From contig NZ_CP050177.1 in assembly GCF_011694815.1 (NCBI RefSeq), positions 3,913,001 through 3,977,000 of the forward strand: 64,000 bases of DNA. Direction: 5' to 3'. Shown here in pieces: positions 22,274 through 29,702 of the stretch; the first letter of the stretch is position 1; the number at the start of each line of letters is the position of its first letter. Position numbers and translations under genes: made by a program. The notes under the pieces are model-generated. The model saw only the letters and a list, made by a program, of their open reading frames with translations. It was not told the origin of the DNA and did no database searches. This stretch comes from Streptomyces liangshanensis. GTDB taxonomy: Bacteria; Actinomycetota; Actinomycetes; Streptomycetales; Streptomycetaceae.

Positions 22274-23491
22274 TTATCCGGCGGCCGTGAGCGGGTCGGG
22301 CGTGGGCGGGCCGGGCATGGGCGGGTGTGCCGGGACCCGTCCCACCGCGCGCAGCGCCGCCGTCACCAGCAGGGACAGCGCCGCCATGGTGGCCATCGCC
22401 CAGGCGACCTCGTGCGTCCCGTACAGCTGGGCGAGGCCGCCCGCCAGCACGGCGCCCAGTGCCTGGCCCACCATCAGGCCCGTGCCGGCCAGGCCGAACG
22501 CCTGGCCGCGTACGTCCTCGCGGGTCAGCAGGACCAGCCGCTCCTGGAGGGGCAGCGAGGCCGAGAAGCCGAAGGCGGAGAGCCCGGCCAGGGCCGCCGC
22601 GACCACTACCGGCGGCGACAGGGGGAAGGCGAGGAACGGCAGCGCGAGCAGGGCGCGCAGGGGCAGGACCAGCCGGTCGCGCAGGGCCTCGGGGACGAAC
22701 CGGCCGACGACGATGTCCCCCAGGAGCATGCCGACCGCGCCGGCCGCCAGCAGGAACCCGGCCTCGCCCCCTGCGTACGGGATGAACAGCGCCTCGCACC
22801 CCACGACCAGGCCGTTGGGCACCCACATCATCAGGAGGAGCGGCCGTACGTCGCGAGAGGTGAGGAGTTCGTGGTTGACGCGGCGGCTGCGTTCGACGAC
22901 GTTGCCCCGGGCCCGCGGCGGACGGTCCGACAGGCCGGTCCGCGCCAGGACCCCAGCGGTGACGCTGACGCACGCGGCGATCGCGAACAGCCAGGACGTC
23001 GACATCACGGCGAGCAGCAGGGCGCCGACGGCGTTGCCGATGATCTGCATGCCGCCGACGGTGATGTTCATGGTCGAGCGGGCCAGGACGTACGCGTCCT
23101 TCGGCACGATGTCCGACAGCAGGGCGATGACGGTGCCGGCGGTGGCGGCCAGGGCGACGTAGCCGCCGGCGAGGATCACGAAGCGCATCCACCAGGTGAG
23201 GCCGGGGAGCGCCTGGAGGGACGCGGTGAGGGTCGCGACGCACGCCATGAAGATCATCGCGGTGCGGGGGCGCAGCAGGTCCGAGGTCGCCGACAGGTAG
23301 CGCGCGGTGACGAGCTGGACGAGCGGTCCGCCGAACAGCGCGACGGAGGTGAGGAGGGGCGATCCTGTCTCGCCGTACATGACCGTGCCGAGGGCCAGCC
23401 CGGAGAGGACGACCGCCGTCATCGTGAACAGGCGGACCACGAACAGGGCTCGGAACTCCCGGACGGCGAAGAGCTCGCGGTAGGTGGTCAT
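22274..23491 (-). CDS. MFS transporter, probable product exporter
   Basis: A 405-residue major facilitator protein with about twelve hydrophobic helices. After a short cytoplasmic start ([20 protein letters not shown]) the first helix follows directly. Between helices 2 and 3 there is an [12 protein letters not shown] basic motif, and the central loop is positively charged. ATG 23491 overlaps the upstream lyase stop (ATGA), so it is translated with the biosynthetic genes; the open frame to 23524 is not needed. As last gene of the operon it most likely exports the metabolite or gives self-resistance. Confidence 0.88.
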
Positions 23492-24978
23492 GTCGCCTGC
23501 AGGGCTTCCACGCGGGTCCGCCACTGCTCGACCTCGTGGGCGACGCGCTCCGGGGAGGTGCCGCCGAAGCTGCGGCGGGACCGGACCGAGTCCTCGACTC
23601 CGAGCACGGTGAACACGTCGGCGGTGATACGGGGATCGACGCCGCGCAGCTGGTCCAGCGTCAGCCGCGCCAGGGTGGTGCGGTGTTCGTCCGCCAGCCG
23701 CACGAGGCGGCCGGTGAGGTGGTGGGCCTCGCGGAACGGCATGCCGAGTTCCCGGGTCAGCCAGTCCGCGAGGTCGGTGGCCGTCGCGTGGGCGGAGCCG
23801 GCCGCCGCCGCCATCGCGGCGCCGCGCGCCTCCATGTCACCGATCATGCCGATCGTCGCCTTGAGGCACAGCTCCAGGGTGTCCGCCGCGTCGAACGTCG
23901 TCTCCTTGTCCTCCTGCATGTCCTTGGAGAACGTCAGCGGCAGCGCCTTCATCACCGTCAGAAGGCCCAGGAGAGCGCCGTGCACCCGGCCGGTCTTGCC
24001 CCGGACCAGCTCGGCGGCGTCGGGATTGCGCTTCTGCGGCATGATCGACGACCCGGTCGTCCAGGCGTCGGACAGCTCGACGAAGCCGAACTGCGGCGAC
24101 ATCCAGAGCACGATCTCCTCGGCCAGGCGCGACAGGTGCGTCATGCACAGGGAGGCCGAGGAGAGGTATTCCAGGGCGAAGTCCCGGTCCGACACCGCGT
24201 CCATGGAGTTGCGCATCGGGCGCTCGAAGCCCAGCAGTTCGGCGGTGCGGGCCCGGTCGATGGGGAACGAGGTGCCGGCCAGCGCCGCCGCGCCGAGCGG
24301 GGACTCGTTCATCCGCGCGCGGGCGTCCCGGAAGCGGCTGTGGTCGCGGCCGAACATCTCGACGTACGCCATCAGGTGGTGGCCGAACGAGACGGGCTGC
24401 GCGCTCTGGAGGTGCGTGAAGCCGGGCATGACGGTCGCCGTGTGCGCCGCGGCCTGCTCGACCAGGACGCCGACGAGCCGGGCGAGGAGGCGCAGCGTAC
24501 GGTCGTGGGCGTCGCGGACCCAGAGCCGGAAGCCGGTGGCGACCTGGTCGTTGCGGCTGCGGGCGGTGTGCAGCCGGCCCGCCGCCTCGCCGATGAGCTC
24601 GCCGAGGCGGGCCTCGACGTTCATGTGGATGTCCTCCAGCTTCACCGAGTAGGCGAAGGTCCCGGACACGATCTCGCCGCGGATCACGTCGAGTCCCCCG
24701 GTGATGGCGGTGGCGTCCGCCCCGGAGATGATGCCCTGCTCGCGCAGCATCGTGACGTGGGCGACCGAGCCGTCGATGTCCTGCGTGGCCATGCGCCGGT
24801 CGAAGCCGATGGAGGCGTTGATCTGCTCCATCACCTCGTCCAGTTCCTCTCTGAAGCGGCCCCGGATCAGGCCGCCGTTCGTGTTCGTACCGACCTGCAT
24901 GGGGTGCGCCGATCTCTGGGGAGGGGACGGGGGCTCGGGGGACGGGGGCTCGGGGGACGGGGTGTCAGGGGCTGACAT
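23488..24978 (-). CDS. Argininosuccinate lyase-family enzyme (ASL1)
   Basis: A 496-residue member of the fumarase/aspartase superfamily, close to ArgH. Residues 1-27 are a Pro/Ser/Glu-rich extension encoded by 15-bp repeats. Conserved elements: DIDGSVAH (68-75), HTARSRNDQ (137-145; ArgH usually has G where A is), THLQSAQP (188-195) with a catalytic-region His, [16 protein letters not shown], and the signature [10 protein letters not shown] (309-318) with its serines. ArgH cleaves argininosuccinate to arginine and fumarate; this copy sits in a biosynthetic operon away from arginine genes. It may therefore use another N-succinyl substrate, or run in reverse. ATG 24978 overlaps the ATP-grasp gene by 14 bp; ATG 24900 is the alternative start. 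Confidence 0.85.
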
Positions 24979-28272: not shown

Positions 28273-29702
28273 GACGTCATCATTCCTACTCGCTTGATTG
28301 TTTCCTGGTCGGAGAAGTCGGCCTCGAATTCGATGAATTCGACGAGGCGCGACCGGAGCCGGGCGGCCGATTCGAGGACCCGCCGGGGCGCCGTACCGCC
28401 CTGGCTCGCCCGCGATTCCACGGATGTCTCGACGGTGATGTCCGGCCATTCCTCGAATGCCAGGCGTTCGTCGACGCCGCGTCGCGCTTCGAGCGGCAAC
28501 GCGCCGAGGGAGCAGTTCTGCTCCTGGGACAGGCGTACGAGCGCCGTCACCAGGTGGTGGGCCTCACGGAAGGGGATGCCGCGTTCCCGGGTCAGCCAGT
28601 CCGCCAGGTCGCCCGAGGTCACGAAGGCGATGTCGGCGGCCCGGCGCATCGCGTCCGGGTTCGGCTCCATCAGGGTCGCGATCATGACGGCGGCGTCCAG
28701 GGAGAGTTCCAGGGTCCGCGCGGTGTCGAACAGCGGCTCCTTGTCCTCCTGGAGATCCCTGAAGTAGCTCAGGGGCAGCCCCTTGACCACGGTCTGGAGG
28801 GCGTGGAGATTGCCCAGGACCCGGCCGGTCTTGCCGCGGATGAGCTCCGCCGCGTCGGGGTTGCGCTTGTGCGGCATGGCCGAGGAGGCGCTGACCAGTT
28901 CGTCGGGGAGGGTGATCAGCCCGACGGGCTGCGACGACCAGAAGACGATCTCCGCGCCGAACCGGGAGAGGTTGAGGGCCACCGAGGCGCCCGCGCTCAG
29001 GAAGTCCAGGGCGAACGCCCGGTCCCCGACGCTCTCCAGGGAGTTCGCCGTCGGCTGCCGGAAGCCCAGGTTCCGCGCGACGGCGGAGCGGTCGACCGGG
29101 AAGCCGGTGCCGGCCAGGGCTGCGGACCCCATGGGGCACTCGTCCTGGAGGGCGAGGACGAAGGAGATCCGCTCGGCATCGCGCAGGAACGCCTCGGCGT
29201 ACGCGAGACAGACGTGACCGAAGGTCATCGGCTGGGCGACCTGGAGGTGCGAGAAGCCGGGCATGACGGTCGCCGCGTGCCGCTCGGCCTGGGTGAGCAT
29301 CGCCTTCGTCAGCGCGAGGATCCTCGACCGGAGCGCGATGACCTGGTCGCGGATCCACAGCCGCAGGGCCGTCACCGCCAGGTCGTTGCGGGCCCGCGCG
29401 GTGCCCAGCCACCCGGCGTCCACGCCGATCCGCGTCTCCAGGTACTGCTCGATCGCCGTGTGGACGTCCTCGGCCTCGGGGTCGAGCGGTTCGTCCCCGG
29501 CGAGGAGCCGCCGCTCCAGGTCGTCCAGCTCGCGCAGCACCCGCGCGGCCGCGTCCGGCGGGACGACCCCCTGGTCCAGCAGCATCGCGACGTGCGCCCG
29601 CGAGACGGTGATGTCGTACGGCGCGAGAATTCCGTCGTAATGCCCGCTGGAGCCGATGGCCGCCATGATTCTCGCGGCATCGGACTTCTCATAGGTCTTC
29701 AT
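28269..29702 (-). CDS. Divergent argininosuccinate lyase-family enzyme (ASL2)
   Basis: A 477-residue fumarase/aspartase-superfamily protein of normal ArgH length, but with changes at core positions. The HTGRSRND motif reads GTARARND (100-107), THLQ-AQP with GHH reads SHLQVAQP then GHV (151-163), and the signature reads ASSAMPHKRN (272-281), with Gly to Ala and Gln to His. The His at 152 and the paired serines are kept, so catalysis is plausible with an altered substrate. DLQEDKEPLFD matches ArgH. Its start (29702) overlaps the stop of a seven-codon ORF, and its stop overlaps the dioxygenase start. It is the first full gene of the operon. Confidence 0.87.
   Translation of the reverse strand: MKTYEKSDAARIMAAIGSSGHYDGILAPYDITVSRAHVAMLLDQGVVPPDAAARVLRELDDLERRLLAGDEPLDPEAEDVHTAIEQYLETRIGVDAGWLGTARARNDLAVTALRLWIRDQVIALRSRILALTKAMLTQAERHAATVMPGFSHLQVAQPMTFGHVCLAYAEAFLRDAERISFVLALQDECPMGSAALAGTGFPVDRSAVARNLGFRQPTANSLESVGDRAFALDFLSAGASVALNLSRFGAEIVFWSSQPVGLITLPDELVSASSAMPHKRNPDAAELIRGKTGRVLGNLHALQTVVKGLPLSYFRDLQEDKEPLFDTARTLELSLDAAVMIATLMEPNPDAMRRAADIAFVTSGDLADWLTRERGIPFREAHHLVTALVRLSQEQNCSLGALPLEARRGVDERLAFEEWPDITVETSVESRASQGGTAPRRVLESAARLRSRLVEFIEFEADFSDQETIKRVGMMTS

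Follow-up and report, generated by a model that had tools for sequence, protein, structure and literature searches.

Argininosuccinate lyase (ASL, the argH product) acts in arginine synthesis together with ornithine carbamoyltransferase (OTC) and argininosuccinate synthase (ASS), and natural-product guanidines usually come from arginine itself or from amidinotransferases. Stand-alone ATP-grasp ligases of the dipeptide type operate in the bacilysin (BacD), RizA, and dapdiamide (DdaF) pathways, and the PRK02186 family (NF002563) unites an ATP-grasp enzyme and an ASL in one fused protein. As we read the reports, both enzyme classes and a link to hydroxyarginine are also features of ethylenediaminedisuccinic acid (EDDS)-like clusters such as that for the Streptomyces siderophore EDHA (ethylenediaminesuccinic acid hydroxyarginine), the product of an operon with aesA-D (PMC8914351, PMC10702961). 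The phaseolotoxin cluster is described as encoding an OTC that is insensitive, along with a fatty acid desaturase and an L-amino acid ligase (PMC3927611). Here, we describe a six-gene operon in a 64,000-nucleotide stretch of Streptomyces liangshanensis DNA (contig NZ_CP050177.1, positions 3,913,001 to 3,977,000; hereafter, the window). In contrast to the BacD, RizA, and DdaF pathways, the operon pairs two ATP-grasp ligases (LigA and LigB) with two ASL-type lyases (ASL1 and ASL2) and a PhyH-type oxygenase. Unlike PRK02186, with which they share both enzyme classes and similar sequence halves, these ligases and lyases are separate proteins, and each is present twice. We propose, with confidence that is evenly balanced, that the operon represents a short form of a rare cluster family whose product, made without nonribosomal peptide synthetases (NRPSs), is a hydroxylated small peptide or derivative of an amino acid, and that the full form of the cluster builds an arginine-like guanidine amino acid.

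The operon lies on the minus strand (window positions 29702-22274), and all of its frames are intact. In transcribed order, it encodes ASL2, a lyase of the fumarase/ASL superfamily (28269..29702; 477 amino acids; Pfam Lyase_1 and ASL_C2); the PhyH-type Fe(II)/2-oxoglutarate oxygenase (27457..28272; 271 amino acids; PF05721); the ATP-grasp ligase LigB (26236..27414; 392 amino acids, or 395 from an upstream TTG; PF13535, ATP-grasp_4); LigA, an ATP-grasp enzyme of the L-amino acid ligase type (24965..26155; 396 amino acids, or 405 from an upstream GTG; PF13535 and PF18603, LAL_C2); the second lyase, ASL1 (23488..24978; 496 amino acids; Lyase_1 and ASL_C2); and a predicted exporter of the major facilitator superfamily (MFS; 22274..23491; 405 amino acids; PF07690, MFS_1). 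All domain families were accepted above the respective Pfam cut-offs. A preliminary description of this DNA had reported a compact operon with overlaps at three of its five junctions, and this is what we find: a 4-bp ATGA overlap, a 42-bp gap, an 80-bp gap, a 14-bp overlap, and a second 4-bp ATGA overlap, sizes that depend on our choice of start codon for each of the six genes. None of the six genes encodes an NRPS or a polyketide synthase, in a search confined to the operon and not extended to the remainder of the window.

A scan of contigs with LigB returned eight loci, two of them close relatives (66% and 80% identity) and the other six at 28%–33% identity. In whole genomes, highly similar LigB matches were present in 1 of 392 drawn from the genus (E ≤ 1e-60), 2 of 199 relatives (1e-60), 4 of 394 from the family (1e-50), 2 of 394 from the class (1e-40), and 5 of 391 from the order (1e-40); these samples overlap, and S. 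liangshanensis itself is part of every count. Homologous clusters are rare but present in Streptomyces and Actinospica. We read six distinct loci, counting once a genome that appeared as G402, G778, and L012. The window operon, ASL2-PhyH-LigB-LigA-ASL1-MFS, differs from the S. guryensis locus (ASL2-PhyH-LigB-LigA-MFS) by the presence of ASL1. Three loci also carry genes for an OTC-like and an ASS-like protein, which we call cluster OTC and cluster ASS. These are the eleven-gene locus of G569, a genome of the same genus (ASS-OTC-ASL2-PhyH-LigB-LigA-ASL1-MFS-desaturase-third ligase-second MFS); that of G497 (ASS-OTC-ASL2-PhyH-LigB-LigA-ASL1-MFS-desaturase); and that of Actinospica (third ligase-second MFS-ASS-OTC-ASL2-PhyH-LigB-LigA-ASL1-desaturase). 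The sixth locus, in G737, consists of LigB-LigA-MFS (C1:3796900-3800971; L040 8901-12972).

The genes are thus conserved together, as the preliminary description required of a real pathway: the core ASL2-PhyH-LigB-LigA is kept in five of the six loci, while ASL1 (four of six) and the MFS ortholog (five of six) vary. Cluster OTC and cluster ASS occur together in three loci, the desaturase also in three, and the third ligase in two, a count that leaves out a short frame after the G497 desaturase. Only the window has the exact six-gene set without additions. Since gene sets, order, and orientation recur at other loci with 66%–84% protein identity, the grouping is not due to chance. The G737 locus is either a decaying copy or a simpler pathway; it adjoins an apparent kdp operon (recognized from first residues only), and its listed LigB frame has a G+C content at third codon positions (GC3) of 0.75.

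Both lyases resemble ArgH in fold and catalytic motifs, and both exceed the 279.5-bit cut-off of the argH equivalog TIGR00838 (ASL1, 583.5 bits; ASL2, 440.9 bits). They differ from ArgH in falling into separate clades, in motif changes, in their biosynthetic operon setting, and in coexisting with a housekeeping argH. In a maximum-likelihood tree of 69 sequences, which was midpoint rooted and for which the program issued long-branch warnings, the four ASL1 proteins formed one clade and 45 ASL2 proteins another (each with 100/100 support); four distant sequences (P0187-P0190) joined ASL2 in a wider 100/100 group. The ASL2 label needed two changes on this tree, as P0190 carried the argH label.

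We compared residues in 37 lyases: 30 of the ASL2 type (including P0187-P0189), five of the argH type, and two ASL1. Neither cluster lyase keeps the full set of argH-type residues at substrate-site motifs. ASL2 is changed at four sites in 27–30 of the 30 sequences. The first position of the SRNDQ motif is Ala in 27 and Gly in three, as opposed to Ser in all five argH-type and both ASL1 sequences; the last position is Leu in 29 and Val in one, as opposed to Gln in the same seven; the Thr of the THLQ motif is Ser in 27 and Thr in three; and the signature loop reads MPHK in 30 of 30, versus MPQK in five of five argH-type sequences. The MPHK form is also usual in adenylosuccinate lyase. In ASL1, Phe replaces a conserved Tyr in all four copies (both of those in the 37-sequence comparison); the Tyr is kept in argH-type sequences, ASL2, and four solved ASLs. 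The residue that follows is not a clean marker (Ser in three, Gly in one, and Asn in one of the argH-type sequences; Phe in 27 and Cys in three of the ASL2 type). Presumably, the Tyr, Thr, and Asn of these motifs are among the residues that bind argininosuccinate in human ASL. The His of HLQ (H152) and the Ser of the signature loop (S273), which we take to be the catalytic residues of ASL, are invariant in all 37. The tree and these residues mark ASL2 off as a distinct subfamily of ASLs.

The S. liangshanensis genome, a single 7.72-Mb contig (G000:C1), contains four ASL_C2 matches above the cut-off: ASL1, ASL2, one beside argG, and one fused to an ATP-grasp domain. The argG-argH pair (G000:C1:6548488-6551145) lies away from the operon and rules out either ASL1 or ASL2 as the sole argH of the strain. 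The earlier reading, under which neither lyase could be the only argH, is borne out by this separate pair. Genes resembling argB and argD, named from their first residues only, lie near it. S. guryensis and Actinospica also have a further argH apart from their cluster copies, to which the S. liangshanensis argH is 85% and 71% identical, respectively, and the three actinobacterial argH sequences form a 100/100 group in the tree that excludes both ASL1 and ASL2.

In G569, G497, and Actinospica, cluster OTC (a carbamoyltransferase), cluster ASS (an argininosuccinate synthase), and ASL1 make up a second set of enzymes for the last three arginine steps. The Actinospica cluster OTC fell below the cut-offs of both the OTC equivalog (239.6 bits; cut-off 280.85) and the putrescine model (213.2 bits; cut-off 500). 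All three copies carry SLRTR, PMN, and HNLP where four solved OTCs have STRTR, SMG, and HCLP. The contig that bears the Actinospica argH also encodes another OTC of ordinary appearance, 37% identical to the cluster OTC of this genome. Two divergent carbamoyltransferase paralogs in the S. liangshanensis genome (G000:C1:4752806-4753720, L046; G000:C1:586977-587885, L048), with long open frames and HDLP instead of HCLP, are distinct from the cluster OTC and did not serve as reference OTCs. The Actinospica cluster ASS passes two ASS equivalogs (571.8 bits over 334; 452.7 bits over 268.2), and all three copies have GTPIARP, VD, KCRG, and Phe where three solved ASS have GTS or GTA, VE, KSRG, and Tyr; three of the four changed positions match what we take to be the citrulline contacts Ser92, Glu270, and Tyr282 of human ASS. 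The joint conserved changes in cluster OTC, cluster ASS, and ASL1 appear more in keeping with a new amine substrate than with a redundant set of arginine-synthesis enzymes. The desaturase-fold protein (Actinospica copy) matches the GntB arginine hydroxylase model at 34.8 bits, far below the cut-off of 380.

Since the gene rows of three relatives also include OTC-like and ASS-like genes, the simplest reading is that ASL1 catalyzes the third step of an additional route of the arginine type. The preliminary description had suggested, as one of two options, that one ligase-lyase step was carried out twice. With ASL1 assigned to such a route and ASL2 to another subfamily, a repeated step is less likely than two distinct lyase steps.

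The window has a shorter form of the cluster. The S. liangshanensis genome has no ortholog of cluster ASS, its sole ASS match being argG (40% identical), and neither the genome nor the window operon has an ortholog of cluster OTC, to which the best carbamoyltransferase is 32%–36% identical. In the window, S. guryensis, and G737, the OTC/ASS/ASL triad does not occur in one gene row. The guanidine route is therefore not required for the core product, as the window lacks cluster OTC and cluster ASS and S. guryensis also lacks ASL1. The presence of ASL1 suggests that cluster OTC and cluster ASS were lost in the window lineage; alternatively, they may have been gained in the other line. For ASL1, pairwise dN/dS (the ratio of nonsynonymous to synonymous substitution rates, NG86 method) was 0.25–0.27 between the window and its three relatives, similar to the 0.19–0.27 among those relatives, values that do not isolate the window's own branch.

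Both ligases are ATP-grasp_4 proteins (LigB, 74.2 bits; LigA, 54.4 bits; Pfam cut-off 27). LAL_C2 was found in LigA (78.7 bits) and was not reported for LigB in the Pfam scan. By sequence profile, L-amino acid ligases are the nearest solved relatives of both; the closest folds to LigB are a phosphoribosylglycinamide synthetase and L-amino acid ligases. Neither ligase approaches the DdaF equivalog NF041595 (LigB, 45.3 bits; LigA, 31.7 bits; cut-off 840), and matches to the BacD equivalog are also far beneath its cut-off. In the oxygenase, H130, D132, and H209 (numbering of a 269-amino-acid form) are invariant across 41 sequences, and the top fold matches of a predicted model (mean confidence score, pLDDT, 92.8) include SnoN, GriE, proline hydroxylase H11, and EctD.

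From these assignments, a pathway can be proposed. LigB and LigA would join amino acid units at the expense of ATP, and PhyH would hydroxylate one of the units. ASL2 would act on something other than argininosuccinate, cleaving (or forming) a C-N bond to a succinyl group and thereby releasing (or consuming) fumarate; this step, whether an N-succinyl compound loses fumarate or the reaction runs backwards, is the weakest point of the mechanism. In full clusters, cluster OTC would carbamoylate an amine other than ornithine, cluster ASS would add aspartate to the resulting urea, and ASL1 would release fumarate to leave the guanidine of an arginine-like residue, which the desaturase-fold enzyme may hydroxylate. 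The MFS protein would export the product. As the S. liangshanensis genome lacks orthologs of cluster OTC and cluster ASS, ASL1 would there need to act on a substrate supplied by argG or on a product of LigA or LigB. A more specific version is tentative, and we hold it somewhat more likely to be wrong than right: cluster OTC, cluster ASS, and ASL1 would be neofunctionalized counterparts of the three enzymes that complete arginine synthesis, taking a non-ornithine amine through ureido and succinyl-guanidine intermediates to a guanidine within a secondary pathway, ASL2 would have a new N-succinyl substrate, and the window would have lost the first two steps but kept the lyase under selection. As for the pathway given in the preliminary description, a dedicated NRPS-free route to a small amino-acid-derived product still seems likely, while the triad genes of the relatives, which lie outside the window, had been missed. 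If our proposal is correct, a complete, remodelled OTC-ASS-ASL set in a peptide-ligase cluster would give access to arginine analogues by a distinct enzymatic path and would serve as a natural experiment on how three consecutive primary enzymes shift their specificity jointly.

Several observations count against this proposal. Both ASLs lie above the argH equivalog cut-off and the Actinospica cluster ASS far above its own, so that ordinary activity is possible for each, and the contacts attributed to the changed residues are ones we presume from annotated human and bacterial enzymes. The window lacks cluster OTC and cluster ASS, and S. guryensis lacks ASL1 as well. The G737 locus keeps only LigB-LigA-MFS, so either ASL2 and PhyH are dispensable there or the locus is decaying. 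In the fold search with PhyH, enzymes that act on sugars and polyketides rank no lower than amino acid hydroxylases, and no metabolite is known for any member of the cluster family.

The fourth ASL_C2 match marks a second small-molecule locus outside the window (G000:C1, about 615432-621559; L024 4433-10560). Its fusion gene scores 719 bits on PRK02186 (cut-off 625). Its neighbors are a gene for a pyridoxal phosphate (PLP) enzyme resembling SbnA, whose 226 bits stay below the 349.95-bit cut-off; a gene resembling kinases, with 32.7 bits on the homoserine kinase model (cut-off 168.25); and a frame that, on visual inspection, appears to encode an MFS transporter. From this gene content, the locus is possibly EDDS/EDHA-like. 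In the operon, residues 20-402 of LigA align with positions 14-395 of the PRK02186 model and residues 71-453 of ASL1 with positions 445-824; ASL2 also matches the lyase half. The fusion shows that the ATP-grasp and ASL classes can be physically linked and supports the ligase-lyase idea of the preliminary description in its general form.

One other pathway that would use these enzymes is net amidation. Here, an ATP-grasp ligase would attach aspartate to a carboxylate and an ASL would split off fumarate, so that a primary amide remains; LigA would work with ASL1 and LigB with ASL2. The 14-bp overlap of LigA and ASL1, the match of LigA and either ASL to the two halves of a fusion that this very genome encodes, and the adenylosuccinate lyase-like MPHK loop of ASL2 speak in its favor. 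Nevertheless, we consider it unlikely: S. guryensis keeps both ligases with a single ASL, G737 has both ligases and no ASL in the stretch read, and the fusion, while it shows that the steps are linked, reveals neither their direction nor their chemistry. If the ASLs instead ran in reverse, adding amines to fumarate, and the ligases attached units such as hydroxyarginine, the product would be an EDDS/EDHA-like aminopolycarboxylate metallophore. The existence of EDHA in Streptomyces, from the operon described in the reports cited above, and the resemblance of the fusion gene and its SbnA-like neighbor to such a locus lend this some weight. However, we take a PLP enzyme of the diaminopropionate/cysteine-synthase type as defining for the EDDS/EDHA cluster family, and the window operon and its two neighbors contain none, the SbnA-like gene being at the other locus; the neighbors of the relatives are annotated only in part. 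We regard a metallophore of this kind as distinctly unlikely.

Self-resistance would explain the arginine-type genes in another way: if the product inhibited arginine biosynthesis, ASL1, cluster OTC, and cluster ASS could be insensitive copies of its targets, like argK of the phaseolotoxin cluster. The description of that cluster (PMC3927611) includes the same three gene types, OTC, fatty acid desaturase, and L-amino acid ligase, that are found in our full clusters. The loci differ in that ours have no amidinotransferase among the annotated genes and have cluster ASS, two ASLs, and PhyH instead, and the window has no OTC. Moreover, three successive steps are copied rather than one, ASL1 and cluster OTC are absent from S. 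guryensis and G737, and every copy read has substrate-motif changes, although such changes could serve resistance too. This explanation seems to us less probable still. Most improbable of all is an epoxysuccinyl or fumaramoyl peptide like E-64 or the dapdiamides, with ASL2 supplying fumarate, PhyH epoxidizing it, and LigB and LigA adding amino acids. E-64 is reported to be made from fumarate by three enzymes, one dependent on Fe(II) and 2-oxoglutarate, one of the ATP-grasp type, and one amide bond synthetase (PMC12568646), and LigB does match the DdaF model, if weakly. But that match is far under the cut-off, fumarate is abundant enough to make a dedicated lyase unnecessary, and both ligases resemble alpha-amino-acid ligases.

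To return to the proposed cluster family, protein searches point to a wider distribution. LigB had 77 matches among 7994 scored candidates, of which we took 49 (at least 38% identity) as orthologs, and PhyH had 65 among 1116, of which we took 60. For ASL2, 7978 of 8000 scored candidates matched; of the best 120, the first 44 stand out (at least 502 bits; the next scored 462). Using equal size of the longest contig as a stand-in for location on the same contig, we found 19 sizes shared by LigB and PhyH, 18 by LigB and ASL2, 18 by PhyH and ASL2, and 11 by all three. These counts draw on 49, 60, and 46 sequences, respectively; the 46 ASL2 sequences are P0143-P0188, the last two belonging to the wider group only, and P0189 (21486, a size shared with the LigB sequence P0042) was left out. 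Several named holders are Gram-negative. In Paraburkholderia tropica, all three proteins share the size 18072; in Pseudomonas cucumis, LigB and PhyH share 6248910; and in Paraherbaspirillum soli, PhyH and a wider-group ASL2 share 427767. Pantoea has both LigB and ASL2, with differing sizes (670072 and 702685). Judged by named proteins with equal longest-contig size, the clusters probably occur also in Pseudomonas and Paraburkholderia. In plasmids, 233 records matched LigB, all at <60% identity (24%–32% for the 15 listed).

Such clusters are easily overlooked because annotation calls these lyases "argininosuccinate lyase"; among the best 120 of the 7978 ASL2 matches, named relatives from Streptomyces, Pseudomonas, Pantoea, and Paraburkholderia bear this label. 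A full-text literature search, whose coverage excludes most subscription journals, returned no published description of the gene set. The papers on Pantoea PNP-1 (PMC4010436) and on onion virulence in Pantoea (PMC9933511, PMC8417944) show different gene sets, and KasC, the ATP-grasp protein of kasichelin (PMC12305651), belongs to a different siderophore cluster. The parts of the cluster belong to known families; their combination with a remodelled triad seems to be new.

The base composition of the cluster gives no sign of foreign origin, since its G+C content (71.3%) resembles that of its flanks (70.9% and 72.3%). The six operon genes have a GC3 of 0.92–0.96 and no TTA codons. A scan for promoters and terminators gave no signal above chance, with no promoter-like sites and two terminator-like sites, compared to 1.9 expected.

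Upstream of the operon and divergent from it lies a gene for a UbiA-family membrane prenyltransferase (29923..30873, plus strand; PF01040), followed by one for a LuxR-type (GerE) regulator (30934..31770, minus strand; PF00196). Both have counterparts at the corresponding position of the S. guryensis locus, each with 76% identity (over 195 residues for UbiA and 233 for the regulator), and neither turned up in the portions of the other four loci that we read. No other window flank gene is present in the 17-kb S. guryensis locus (frames of at least 100 codons, E up to 1e-15), and for this reason the two genes probably travel with the sub-type of the cluster shared by the window and S. guryensis. 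The putative regulator probably controls the cluster. Just past it is a tRNA-Ala gene (window 31824-31897), a possible integration neighborhood of the cluster.

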